DNA from: an endosymbiont of Escarpia spicata
Lineage (GTDB): Bacteria > Pseudomonadota > Gammaproteobacteria > Chromatiales > Chromatiaceae
NCBI GenBank assembly: GCA_003349915.1
Contig: QFXE01000021.1
Coordinates: 62,001 to 126,000 of the forward strand
Direction: 5' to 3'
DNA length: 64,000 bases
Shown here: positions 30,058-32,468 of the stretch, one piece after another
How the letters are laid out: each line of letters starts with the position of its first letter
How positions within the stretch are numbered: position 1 is the first letter of the stretch
The notes under the pieces: model-generated
Told to the model about the DNA's origin: nothing
Databases searched by the model: none
Seen by the model: only the letters and a program-made list of their open reading frames with translations
Position numbers and translations under genes: made by a program

Positions 30058-31299
30058 CTAGTCGAGTACATGGCTCACAAGTCCATCCGCCAGCTTGGGC
30101 TCGAACCAGGTCGATTTGGGGGGCATCACCTCCCCCGCATCGGCTACCGCCATCAGGTCTTCCATCCCGGTGGGAAAGAACGAAAACGCAACCTGCATCT
30201 CACCGCTGTCCACTCTTTTCTCCAGACCAGCCAGACCGCGAATGCCGCCGACAAAGTCGATGCGGCTGTCACGGCGAGGATCGGAGATCCCAAGAATCGG
30301 ATCGATCAGATTGTTGGCCAACAGACTCACGTCCAAGCGACCCACCGGATCGTCGCTGGGGATACGCTCTCCACTCAGGCGCAGACGGTACCACTGCTTG
30401 TCCAGATACATGCCGAATTCGGCAGGCTGCGACGGCTTAACCGGTAAATCGCTGGTTTCGACACTGAAAGCCTCACCGACCCGAGACAGAAAGGCTGCTG
30501 GATCCAGCCCGTTGAGATCCTTCACCACCCGATTGTAGTCGAGGATCTGCATCTGATTGTGGGGGAAAATCACAGTCAGAAAGTAATTGTAGGACTCGTC
30601 GCCCGTATGGTTTGGATTGTCCGCCTTGCGGACAGCACCTACCCGGGAACCCGCCGCCGAGCGATGGTGGCCATCGGCCACGTAGAGGGCATCCATGGCA
30701 TCGAAAGCATCTGTCAGCCTAGCGACTGTGGTCTTATCAGCCACCACCCAGATCTCATGCAGCACACCATCAGCGGCGGTGACTTCGATAACTGGTGCGG
30801 CACTGCTTATCTCTGCAAGAGTGCTGTCGACAACGGAGGTACTGGGATAGACCAGAAACACCGGACCGGTCTGAGCGTTGAGGGCATCGACCTGACGCAC
30901 CCTGTCATCCTCTTTCGCAGGACGGGTGAATTCATGCTTTTTGATTCGATTGTTGTCGTAAGCATCTACAGAGGCAACAGCCGCCAGCCCCGTCTGCACA
31001 TGCTCACCCATGGTCAGCCGATAGACATAGAAACAGGGTTTTTCGTCCCGCACCAGTACGCCTTCATCCTCCATCTTCGCCAGGTTTTCCGCCGCCTTGG
31101 CATAGACTTCGGGCGCATAAGGGTCAGTGCCTTCAGGCAGGTCAACCTCTGGGCGGGAGATATGCAGGAAACTCCAGGGACGGCCCACCACCATCTCGCG
31201 GGCTTCCGCTTCATTCATTACATCGTAAGGTGGGGCGGCCACATCGGCGGCACGACCAGCGGCGGGACGCAGCCCCGGAAACGCTCTGATCAACGGCAT
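30058..31299 (-). CDS. DUF1015 family protein
   Basis: The 413-residue cytoplasmic protein starts MPLIRAFPGLRPAAGRAADV and contains AAPPYDVMNEAEAREM, a typical DUF1015 opening. Further conserved parts are FYVYRLTMGEHVQTGLAAVA and ALYVADGHHRSAAGSRV. Family members are unassigned; some occur near serine and phosphonate metabolism genes. It is separated from relA by 31 bp on the same strand and could be co-transcribed with it. The family is clear; the function is unknown. Confidence 0.85.
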   Translation of the reverse strand: MPLIRAFPGLRPAAGRAADVAAPPYDVMNEAEAREMVVGRPWSFLHISRPEVDLPEGTDPYAPEVYAKAAENLAKMEDEGVLVRDEKPCFYVYRLTMGEHVQTGLAAVASVDAYDNNRIKKHEFTRPAKEDDRVRQVDALNAQTGPVFLVYPSTSVVDSTLAEISSAAPVIEVTAADGVLHEIWVVADKTTVARLTDAFDAMDALYVADGHHRSAAGSRVGAVRKADNPNHTGDESYNYFLTVIFPHNQMQILDYNRVVKDLNGLDPAAFLSRVGEAFSVETSDLPVKPSQPAEFGMYLDKQWYRLRLSGERIPSDDPVGRLDVSLLANNLIDPILGISDPRRDSRIDFVGGIRGLAGLEKRVDSGEMQVAFSFFPTGMEDLMAVADAGEVMPPKSTWFEPKLADGLVSHVLD

Positions 31300-31410: not shown

Positions 31411-31428
31411 TGTCAGAAAATTCCTACA
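31411..31428 (+). promoter_or_regulatory. GacA/LetA/UvrY-type upstream box
   Basis: TGTCAG, AAAATT, CCTACA is an 18 bp interrupted palindrome matching the GacA box TGTAAG-N6-CTTACA with exact spacing and two differences. It also agrees with the Legionella LetA element TNAGAAATTTCTNA at most positions. It lies about 55 bp upstream of the putative start of a GGA-rich RNA. Confidence 0.65.
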
Positions 31429-31464
31429 TAAACGCCGGATATTTCCCGCAGATAAAATTCGGCT

Positions 31465-31605
31465 CAAGTGCCAAGATTAAGTTGTCGCCATAAGGACGTT
31501 ATGGATGACATCAAGGCGCACGGATGCACCAAGGATTGAAACATTTGCCAACCAAGCAGGGCGACATCGCCCCGGCTCCCACGGATCAGGGAGCCGGGGT
31601 TTTTT
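31465..31605 (+). ncRNA. Candidate Csr/Rsm-type regulatory sRNA (CsrA sponge)
   Basis: About 140 nt with several GGA motifs presented in hairpin loops. Hairpin 1 is CCATAA-GGACG-TTATGG (31488-31504). Hairpin 2 is GGCGCA-CGGA-TGCACC (31515-31530, one mismatch). CAAGGATTG (31530-31538) shows a third GGA, and the terminator loop ACGGATCA (31581-31588) a fourth; ATGGATG gives another. The terminator has an 11 bp stem (31570-31580 / 31589-31599) plus T6. A TAAAAT sits at 31453-31458 and a GacA-like box upstream. No ORF of note is present on this strand. The 3' end is antisense to the end of folK. The start site is estimated. CsrB/RsmY/RsmZ RNAs of gammaproteobacteria have exactly this architecture. 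Confidence 0.7.
31570..31605 (+). terminator. Rho-independent terminator of the candidate sRNA
   Basis: CCCCGGCTCCC / GGGAGCCGGGG forms a perfect 11 bp stem with loop ACGGATCA, followed by TTTTTT CTTTT on the plus strand. Orientation shows that it ends plus-strand transcription, where no protein gene exists. Its loop carries a GGA motif. Confidence 0.85.
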
Positions 31606-32119
31606 CTTTTCCGCCTGCCGGCTGGCCATCCACAGGCCAGATACGCTGATCTGCGTCATCGAAAACATCCCAAAGCGCCTGGTAGCTTTTTCCAATCAGG
31701 GGATGCATCTCTTCCCCCGCGACCTCAGACAGCGGCAGCAGGACAAAAGCGTAGTGGATAATTTCATCCCTCGGCAGCTGCAGTTTTGGTGAATCTATCA
31801 CCTGGTCTCCATAGGTCAACAGGTCAATATCCAGGGTCCTGGGGGTATATTTGTCTCCCGAGCGCACCCGGCCATTGGCATCTTCAATCCCCCGCAGCCG
31901 CTGGACCAGCGCTTCAACAGGCAAACCGGTTTCAATCCCCACCACCAGATTGTAAAAACTGTTCCCATCAAAACCGACAGCCTCACTCTCATAGGTGCGG
32001 GAGACCACCAGCTCACCGAATTGAGCCTTCAGATCGTGCAGTGCCTGAGTGATATGGCGCTGTCTGTCGATATTGCTGCCCAGGCTCAACCAGATTCTGA
32101 CCACTGCAGACTCAGTCAC
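31586..32119 (-). CDS. folK: 2-amino-4-hydroxy-6-hydroxymethyldihydropteridine pyrophosphokinase
   Basis: HPPK transfers pyrophosphate from ATP to 6-hydroxymethyl-dihydropterin in folate synthesis. I start at GTG 32119, which overlaps the folB end by 8 bp and gives a normal-sized 177-residue protein beginning VTESAVVRIWLSLGSN. Signature pieces are LSLGSNIDRQRHI, YNLVVGIETGL and the HPPK motif RTLDIDLLTYGD with PRDEIIHYAFVLLPL. The last codons run into the convergent sRNA terminator. Confidence 0.92.
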   Translation of the reverse strand: MTESAVVRIWLSLGSNIDRQRHITQALHDLKAQFGELVVSRTYESEAVGFDGNSFYNLVVGIETGLPVEALVQRLRGIEDANGRVRSGDKYTPRTLDIDLLTYGDQVIDSPKLQLPRDEIIHYAFVLLPLSEVAGEEMHPLIGKSYQALWDVFDDADQRIWPVDGQPAGGKEKTPAP

Positions 32120-32468
32120 GACTGCCCCGCTCGATGATGACCCCGACATCCCGTGCAGCACTTACCGCACCAATCTTGTTCATGGTCAACCGCACCCAGG
32201 GTACTTCGAACTCGTCGAGCACGATGTCCGCACAGCGCTCCGCCAACGTCTCCACCAGCTGGAACTCACTCCCCTCCACGAACTGAATCAGCCGCTTGGA
32301 GACCGCCTTGTAATCCAGGGTATCGTCGATGTGATCGCTCTCAGCCGCACGGGCTATGTCTGCTCCCATTTCGAGATCGATCACCACCGGTTGCCTGATC
32401 TCCCGCTCCCAGTCGTAGATGCCGATTACCGTCTCGATGCGCAGATTTCTGATGAAGACAATATCCAT
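32112..32468 (-). CDS. folB: Dihydroneopterin aldolase
   Basis: The 118-residue enzyme converts 7,8-dihydroneopterin to 6-hydroxymethyl-dihydropterin. It starts MDIVFIRNLRIETVIGIYDW with the conserved IG.Y/DWER region, then DDTLDYKAVSKRLIQFVEGS and FQLVETLAERCADIVLDEF, which includes the catalytic-region Glu. The length is normal. It precedes folK in a tight unit for two consecutive folate steps, divergent from plsY. Confidence 0.95.
   Translation of the reverse strand: MDIVFIRNLRIETVIGIYDWEREIRQPVVIDLEMGADIARAAESDHIDDTLDYKAVSKRLIQFVEGSEFQLVETLAERCADIVLDEFEVPWVRLTMNKIGAVSAARDVGVIIERGSRD

Follow-up and report, generated by a model that had tools for sequence, protein, structure and literature searches.

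A candidate Csr/Rsm sponge RNA family of Sedimenticola-type and tubeworm-symbiont gammaproteobacteria with a conserved block complementary to the csrA mRNA leader

The window, by which we mean the whole stretch of 64,000 nucleotides analysed here, carries a putative plus-strand RNA gene between a DUF1015 gene and folK. The features of the locus are as follows.

30058-31299, minus strand: DUF1015 gene (PF06245), one flank of the RNA gene
31411-31428, plus strand: GacA/UvrY/LetA-type box TGTCAG-N6-CCTACA, 56-73 nt upstream of the putative 5' end of the RNA
31433-31450, plus strand: possible degenerate second box, 22 nt 3' of the first, 7/12 by reading and weak in the window copy
31484-31605, plus strand: candidate sponge RNA gene of the Csr/Rsm type; 5' end placed at the conserved start GUCGCC, 3' end at the T-run
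31484-31489, plus strand: closing stem, 5' strand GUCGCC, with covariation in 104 sequences
31492-31496, plus strand: CsrA-type motif 1, AAGGA; GGA (31494) present in 94% of 104 aligned members
31501-31505, plus strand: CsrA-type motif 2, ATGGA; GGA (31503) in either of two adjacent columns (42% + 40% of 104)
31520-31524, plus strand: CsrA-type motif 3, ACGGA; GGA (31522) in 72% of 104; loop of the hairpin GGCGCA-CGGA-TGCACC
31531-31535, plus strand: CsrA-type motif 4, AAGGA; GGA (31533) in 96% of 104; unpaired in the minimum free energy (MFE) structure of two folds
31544-31557, plus strand: block UUUGCCAACCAAGC, conserved and antisense to the leader of the csrA mRNA
31560-31565, plus strand: closing stem, 3' strand GGCGAC, with covariation in 104 sequences
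31569-31605, plus strand: intrinsic terminator with CsrA-type motif 5 (ACGGA, GGA at 31583-31585) in its loop; loop GGA in 95% of 104
31586-32161, minus strand: folK (TIGR01498), the other flank of the RNA gene

The RNA would be about 122 nt long, with its 5' end at 31484. Against the window, the covariance model R1, which was built from 13 sequences including that of the window itself, gave 31482-31605 as the sole match at E <= 10 (132.9 bits). Folded from 31465 to 31607, the sequence was better than 200/200 shuffles (z -4.0); the shorter span 31485-31607 gave a z of -2.7 with 2/200 shuffles equally good, and both spans include the terminator. The terminator stem (31569-31600) consists of 12 pairs and is followed by the T-run. 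The first-pass annotation of this DNA had described about 140 nt free of genes, which is right except that the 3' end of folK reaches in: its stop codon (31586-31588) falls within the terminator. It had also counted four to five GGA motifs, one of them in the loop of a strong plus-strand terminator, and this count stands. Five motifs are usable, while a sixth GGA (31590) is paired and buried in the terminator stem. The two clean GGA hairpins that it proposed both form in MFE folds, and each needs a qualification. CCATAA-GGACG-TTATGG is present in the MFE of the window copy, where its rival is the conserved closing stem GUCGCC/GGCGAC (enforcing that stem gives -48.9 instead of -49.6); in alignments read by eye, the GGA motifs are a family feature and this hairpin is not. 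GGCGCA-CGGA-TGCACC depends on the fold, appearing in the MFE of 31485-31607 and of one further fold and not in that of 31465-31607.

Related loci were sought by DNA similarity and with R1. A DNA search of 55 genomes gave matches in 16, among them the window's own genome and every one of the other five in its genus; the matches in two of the 16 (G006, G041) fall outside the RNA, and those at L014, L015 and L017 were dropped as not being the RNA according to R1. At E <= 0.01, R1 matched 109/194 genomes sampled from the window's family (Chromatiaceae), or 89/156 when only genomes of good quality were counted, and a good number of the 109 have two or more matches. A pattern scan of named genomes yielded 26 records, every one of which R1 matches. 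The named carriers include Sedimenticola species, the Solemya velesiana gill symbiont, the Escarpia laminata and Lamellibrachia anaximandri endosymbionts, two Cycloclasticus bins and others. Across the class, 7/369 genomes were matched with R1 and 10/369 with the model R2, each count including the own genome and two of the same family. One R1 match (L072, in G359) is taken as false, since it overlaps a T-box match (65.6 of 93 bits), and the three weakest R2 matches (L312, L313, L314) look like chance by reading. Two other R2 matches, L310 and L311, read as plausible members outside the family, with a GTCGCC start and GGA motifs; in L310 the block is shortened.

The structure of the RNA is conserved by compensatory change. 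Among 104 aligned members, 97.9% of cells are paired and 15/17 pairs show double changes, beyond 500/500 shuffles, with the caveat that the alignment was fitted to R1 and the pairing percentage is biased upward. The closing stem is paired in 99.7% of cells with 5/6 pairs changed on both sides, and the terminator stem in 96.9% with 10/11. When the structures were slid along the same alignment, pairing dropped to 37-55%. A MAFFT alignment of the first 13 sequences gave 98.6% paired and 8/17 pairs changed on both sides. GGA stands at the five places in 94%, 82% (two adjacent columns), 72%, 96% and 95% of the 104 members. The putative free-standing, non-coding transcript thus has a terminator and RNA covariation. 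As to the possibility, raised earlier, that relatives might keep the terminator without the GGA motifs or the palindrome, the relatives keep both.

We then consider how far these motifs differ from chance. In the window copy the bare GGA count is unremarkable (6 versus a mean of 3.6 in dinucleotide shuffles, p 0.065). On the other hand, the ANGGA count is 6 against a shuffle mean of 0.78, and 0/200 shuffles reach 6; five of these motifs are usable, one of them in the terminator loop. Family-wide, the mean is 4.43 ANGGA per RNA in 129 R1 matches compared with 0.91 in shuffles, where it should be borne in mind that R1 itself contains GGA. This set comprises 129 distinct members, with identical bodies counted once and weak matches down to 23 bits included. 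For accessibility, 92 non-redundant members scoring at least 35 bits were used. The unpaired probability was 0.59 for GGA versus 0.19 for other G, compared with 0.40 versus 0.30 in shuffled RNAs, and 159/508 GGA lay in MFE hairpin loops against 19/225 for shuffled RNAs. We hold a Csr/Rsm sponge role to be very likely, in which the RNA would bind and antagonize CsrA.

The box TGTCAG-N6-CCTACA is present at 31411-31428, as the first-pass annotation had claimed. It is the only match in the window, with zero mismatches, to the pattern TGTMAGN6CYTACA, which we take to be the consensus of the GacA/UvrY/LetA site. With 2 mismatches the same pattern gave 13 matches against a chance mean of 9.6, which is within chance. 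The box alone proves nothing, whereas its fixed place in relatives does. A box of at least 9/12 lies upstream of 114/129 members compared with 17/129 shuffled upstreams, and in 75 of them it starts 71 or 72 nt before the R1 start; this upstream region is outside the R1 model. Family-wide, the best boxes stand at about -115, -93, -71 and -49; this spacing of roughly 22 nt is reminiscent of GacA sites stacked along a single DNA face. In PMC2375449 the palindrome is placed upstream of rsmX, rsmY and rsmZ.

The own genome also holds candidate protein partners. Its single CsrA exceeds the NF002469 and TIGR00202 cut-offs. The best UvrY homologue is 50% identical (E 1.7e-63; next best 31%), and its best model is GacA/UvrY at 274.6 bits, just under the cut-off of 280. 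It is followed by a UDG-superfamily gene and then by a GIY-YIG/UVR (UvrC-like) gene; in E. coli, uvrY adjoins uvrC. The best BarA homologue covers residues 6-880, and its best model is BarA at 658.9, below the cut-off of 890. The BarA/GacA-CsrA circuit is therefore likely on these homologies, not proven, and GacA would control the RNA. Overall, the earlier proposal of a Csr/Rsm-type sponge under a GacA/LetA-like box has gained ground: RNA and box are conserved in relatives, and CsrA, GacA-like and BarA-like genes are present.

Comparison with known RNAs assigned the window RNA to none of the Rfam sponge families. At Rfam cut-offs the window gave tRNA only and no sponge family; at E <= 10 the stretch gave six matches, all far below cut-off and rejected; the best, mir-351, lies opposite the terminator on the minus strand with 22.9 of 70 bits. 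Over the family RNAs in relatives (9 + 9 + 3 loci), the only Rfam match was Bp1_162 in L096 (32.6 of 50 bits, on the other strand), taken as chance. RF00018 (CsrB) is absent from the E <= 10 matches in the window stretch and 9 relatives, while E. coli csrB, as a positive control, matches it at 380 bits. For RF00195 (RsmY) the own genome's one match at E <= 0.001 is on another contig, C16 (25.4 bits, cut-off 57), and RF00166 (PrrB_RsmZ) finds nothing at E <= 0.001 anywhere in that genome. The covariance check that the first-pass annotation had proposed gives no support to CsrB, RsmY or RsmZ membership. In architecture, the RNA is similar to RsmY as read from L178, a locus with an above-cut-off RsmY match: both have about 120 nt, GGA in a long-range stem, an upstream GacA-type palindrome and a terminator. 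It differs in that R1 gives L178 only 16.5 bits and RF00195 has no match in the window; moreover, the GCCAACCAAGC block is missing from L178, and its genome has a primary csrA leader without TTGGTTGG, the leader-site sequence described below. The sponge architecture also recalls PrrB/RsmZ (RF00166). E. coli csrB is unlike it in its 369 nt and in having no R1 match at E <= 10. The likeness to CsrB and CsrC of Enterobacteria lies in a multi-GGA antagonist of CsrA under UvrY (PMC7652899). We take the RNA, on these comparisons, as a putative member of the Csr/Rsm sponge class outside the Rfam CsrB, RsmY and RsmZ families. RsmA-binding RNAs have been predicted elsewhere (PMC5568370).

The longest conserved unpaired run of the RNA is not a GGA site. 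It is UUUGCCAACCAAGC (31544-31557), whose core GCCAACCAA is exact in 55/92 non-redundant members, an antisense stretch that the first-pass annotation missed: the csrA leader has a conserved site of which this run is the reverse complement. In the own genome, 14 contiguous pairs, two of them G-U, can form with the leader site GCTTGGTTGGTAAG, about 85-86 nt upstream of the csrA start. With at most one mismatch allowed, the block complement occurs at 20 places in this genome (one being the RNA itself), which is chance level given the 21 of a backward control; at the csrA-upstream place among these 20 the mismatch is kept as a G-U pair. Among the other near-matches in the own genome, only L202 (65 nt), L200 (182) and L201 (230) have the start of a sense frame within 300 nt, counting the next sense frame of at least 100 aa, and L200 lies inside another frame. 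csrA is the sole supportable target of the block. The block is more often unpaired than the RNA body without terminator (0.64 versus 0.48, n=50), as is expected for the accessible block of a base-pairing sRNA. In 50 leaders anchored on TTGGTTGG, the site lies at a median of 90 nt from the start (range 42-114), and the surroundings share gGCTTGGTTGGC and little else.

The complementarity between block and leader was scored over contiguous pairs (Watson-Crick 1, G-U -0.2). A score of at least 10 was reached in 62/70 genomes, compared with 18/700 shuffled leaders and 5/206 other 200-nt stretches of the same loci (this control omits one stretch over the RNA's own gene, with which it is 6/207). For a score of at least 11 the figures were 46/70, 2/700 and 3/206. 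Paired with the own leader, the 24-nt block had a duplex energy of -26.7 kcal/mol; leaders from other genera gave -24.4 and shuffled ones -17.6. In 52/60 genomes no more than 5% of 200 shuffles did as well as the own leader, and in 41 no more than 1%, this test covering 60 of the 70 genomes because 10 are absent from the alignment A6. TTGGTTGG occurs in 53/94 csrA leaders and the opposite sense, CCAACCAA, in 0/94. It is found in 52/78 leaders with an R1 match compared with 1/16 without (Fisher 7.6e-6, the genomes not being independent); eight of the R1-positive genomes in this count are taken from the R1 match table alone. The leader tests left out L218, whose leader is cut, and L305, where no start was found; the second csrA copies L302-L304, L306 and L307 were kept apart. 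The leader L273 (G020) has TTGGTTGG and no R1 match, and may reflect a missed RNA or a relic.

Particular lineages show how the two sides vary. Block and site are both changed in G163 and G188 (CCAGACCAAGCA/TGCTTGGTCTGG) and in G062 (AATACCAACCAG/CTGGTTGGTATT), and in G148 both sides differ and form a 17-pair duplex (two G-U); in G033, G057 and G069, too, both sides differ from the common form and yet pair. G132 pairs perfectly over 17 positions, beyond the common core. In both G012 and G120, the two paralogues lengthen the duplex at a shared leader site, one to one side and one to the other. The pairing in G013 has one mismatch, and in G017 the site is missing before one csrA and present before the other. 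Both Cycloclasticus genomes have the site, with 11 pairs in one case and 15 pairs including one G-U in the other. Taken together with the scores above, these patterns make pairing of the RNA with the csrA mRNA quite likely. As judged by comparative sequence analysis, the locus is a conserved RNA family, in which family, structure, box and complementarity to csrA are all apparent.

Several results weigh on the other side. With the whole RNA, duplex energies were -57.6 for the own leader, -55.1 for foreign and -52.2 for shuffled leaders; 21/70 genomes pass the 5% level, and own beats foreign in 0.56 of comparisons (26 divergent genomes). This test is uninformative because long unrestricted duplexes swamp the site. 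With the 24-nt block, own beats foreign leaders in 0.64 of comparisons in 22 divergent genomes and in 0.65 in 38 canonical ones; taken individually, 9/22 of the divergent genomes stand at 0.86 or more and 8/22 under 0.5. No good leader site was found in G151 and G047, and G101 and G129 have weak ones. In 16/18 multi-copy genomes one copy or more has a score below 10, and the own genome is among them (11.6 for the window copy, 8.6 for the second), so that pairing would belong to some copies. The leader site is not especially open (0.37 versus 0.41). That pairing opens or closes the ribosome-binding region of csrA was rejected, since blocking the site changes its predicted accessibility by -0.001. 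The site would be transcribed as part of the csrA mRNA. A TAGAAT-like word (at least 5/6) lies 34-53 nt upstream of it in at least 36/50 leaders, in a scan run without a chance control, and would put the site inside the transcript; a sigma-70 promoter scan of the own csrA leader gave no match that passed.

We propose that this is a sponge family of Sedimenticola-type and tubeworm-symbiont gammaproteobacteria, reaching Cycloclasticus, in which one GacA-driven RNA would set CsrA activity and, via a conserved antisense block, CsrA synthesis as well; we give this reading a probability of about 0.75. An active BarA/GacS-like kinase and GacA/UvrY-like regulator would switch the RNA on at the box at 31411. 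The five ANGGA motifs, framed by the closing stem and the terminator, would bind CsrA dimers and free CsrA would fall. The unpaired UUUGCCAACCAAGC would meanwhile pair with the site in the csrA 5' leader, about 86 nt before the start codon, the most likely effect being less csrA expression or a shorter-lived mRNA, although repression is a sign that we infer and hold to be only about an even call. The same signal would then titrate existing CsrA and curb new synthesis. The RNA is probably dual-function, titrating the CsrA protein and pairing with the csrA mRNA. McaS of E. coli offers a likeness, as it base-pairs and also binds CsrA in one RNA, its partners being motility and biofilm mRNAs; we know of no pairing of McaS with csrA, and to our knowledge it is not a GacA-box sponge family. 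Nor do we know of such a two-level switch for CsrB, RsmY or RsmZ.

The main rival to repression of csrA is that the pairing is real and runs in reverse: the leader would capture or destabilise the sponge, or the RNA would raise csrA translation, in a negative feedback limiting the sponge. We regard this as rather unlikely, though worth serious attention. A site at a median of 90 nt upstream is too far for a direct block of the ribosome, and blocking it leaves the predicted ribosome-binding access unaltered; feedback loops are also usual in the E. coli Csr circuit (PMC7652899). Against this, it is general knowledge that upstream pairing can also trigger mRNA decay. Less probable still is a plain Csr/Rsm sponge whose block serves the RNA only (in fold, stability or as a protein site) and whose match to csrA has another cause, for example a shared protein-binding sequence. 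The sponge features are indeed independent of the block, the own-versus-foreign duplex tests are weak overall, and some genomes and many second copies have no good match. Such a cause sits poorly with the leader site standing in the same sense as the block in 0/94, with a site that in certain lineages reaches past the common core (G132 has 17 pairs), with site and block changing together in G163/G188, G062 and G148, and with the opposite extensions by the G012 and G120 paralogues on the same leader site. That there is no RNA gene, only a chance GGA cluster with a terminator or a neighbour's terminator, is very improbable and, given the conservation, as good as refuted: although the box scan is within chance once mismatches are allowed and the GGA count is near chance in the window copy, DUF1015 and folK lie on the minus strand while the terminator T-run is on the plus, and conservation, covariation and box spacing hold across genera.

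If the two-level control of CsrA is true, a sponge would join protein titration and pairing with the target protein's mRNA in one circuit, and the combination of sponge action with synthesis control could be tested directly. A search of the open-licence literature by title and abstract found nothing on this RNA or on pairing of a Csr/Rsm sponge with csrA mRNA, and nothing joining Endoriftia and CsrA. According to PMC7652899, Csr/Rsm sponges are the textbook case of protein-binding rather than pairing RNAs, and base-pairing RNAs are contrasted there with CsrB/C. For uncultured chemosynthetic symbionts the circuit points to a full Gac-Rsm output, and it might, speculatively, govern the switch between free-living and host-associated states. 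Covariance models are supplied for the family, which has no Rfam 15 match.

Finally, the family occupies several genomic places. The first-pass annotation had remarked on the place beside folK; the RNA does lie between DUF1015 and folK in genera g1 (the window's) and g8, only there among the members tested, while a commoner site and a second copy in the own genome had been overlooked. The commonest tested site is that of dtd and typA: 46/129 members lie within 1.5 kb of both, with dtd upstream and typA downstream, convergent in all but L152. typA alone is a neighbour in 11/129 and dtd alone in 7/129, whereas 17/129 members are beside DUF1015, 16 of them also beside folK, and 47/129 are beside none of the tested neighbours. 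The second own copy (G000:C2:564170-564299, L049 6171-6300) is in a dtd/typA stretch. Its box is TGTTCAGAAAATTCCTACA, its csrA complementarity is shorter than that of the window copy, and a gene reading like a methyl-accepting chemotaxis protein lies between it and typA. Two g8 genomes (G088, G171) have four tandem RNA copies between dtd and typA, on the minus strand at L051 3880-5039 and L053 2585-3745; each L051 copy reads as terminator-ended. L055 has two RNA copies and a weak third. Further pattern-perfect boxes occur in two relatives, at L017 1506-1523 and L015 1501-1518 (minus strand), the latter next to what reads as a dtd-like start, a place at which one would expect an undetected copy of the RNA. 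In one csrA leader (L018 1475-1503), GGA motifs lie near the start codon (AAGGAAAACAGGGAGATTGGATTATG), which suggests autoregulation by CsrA.
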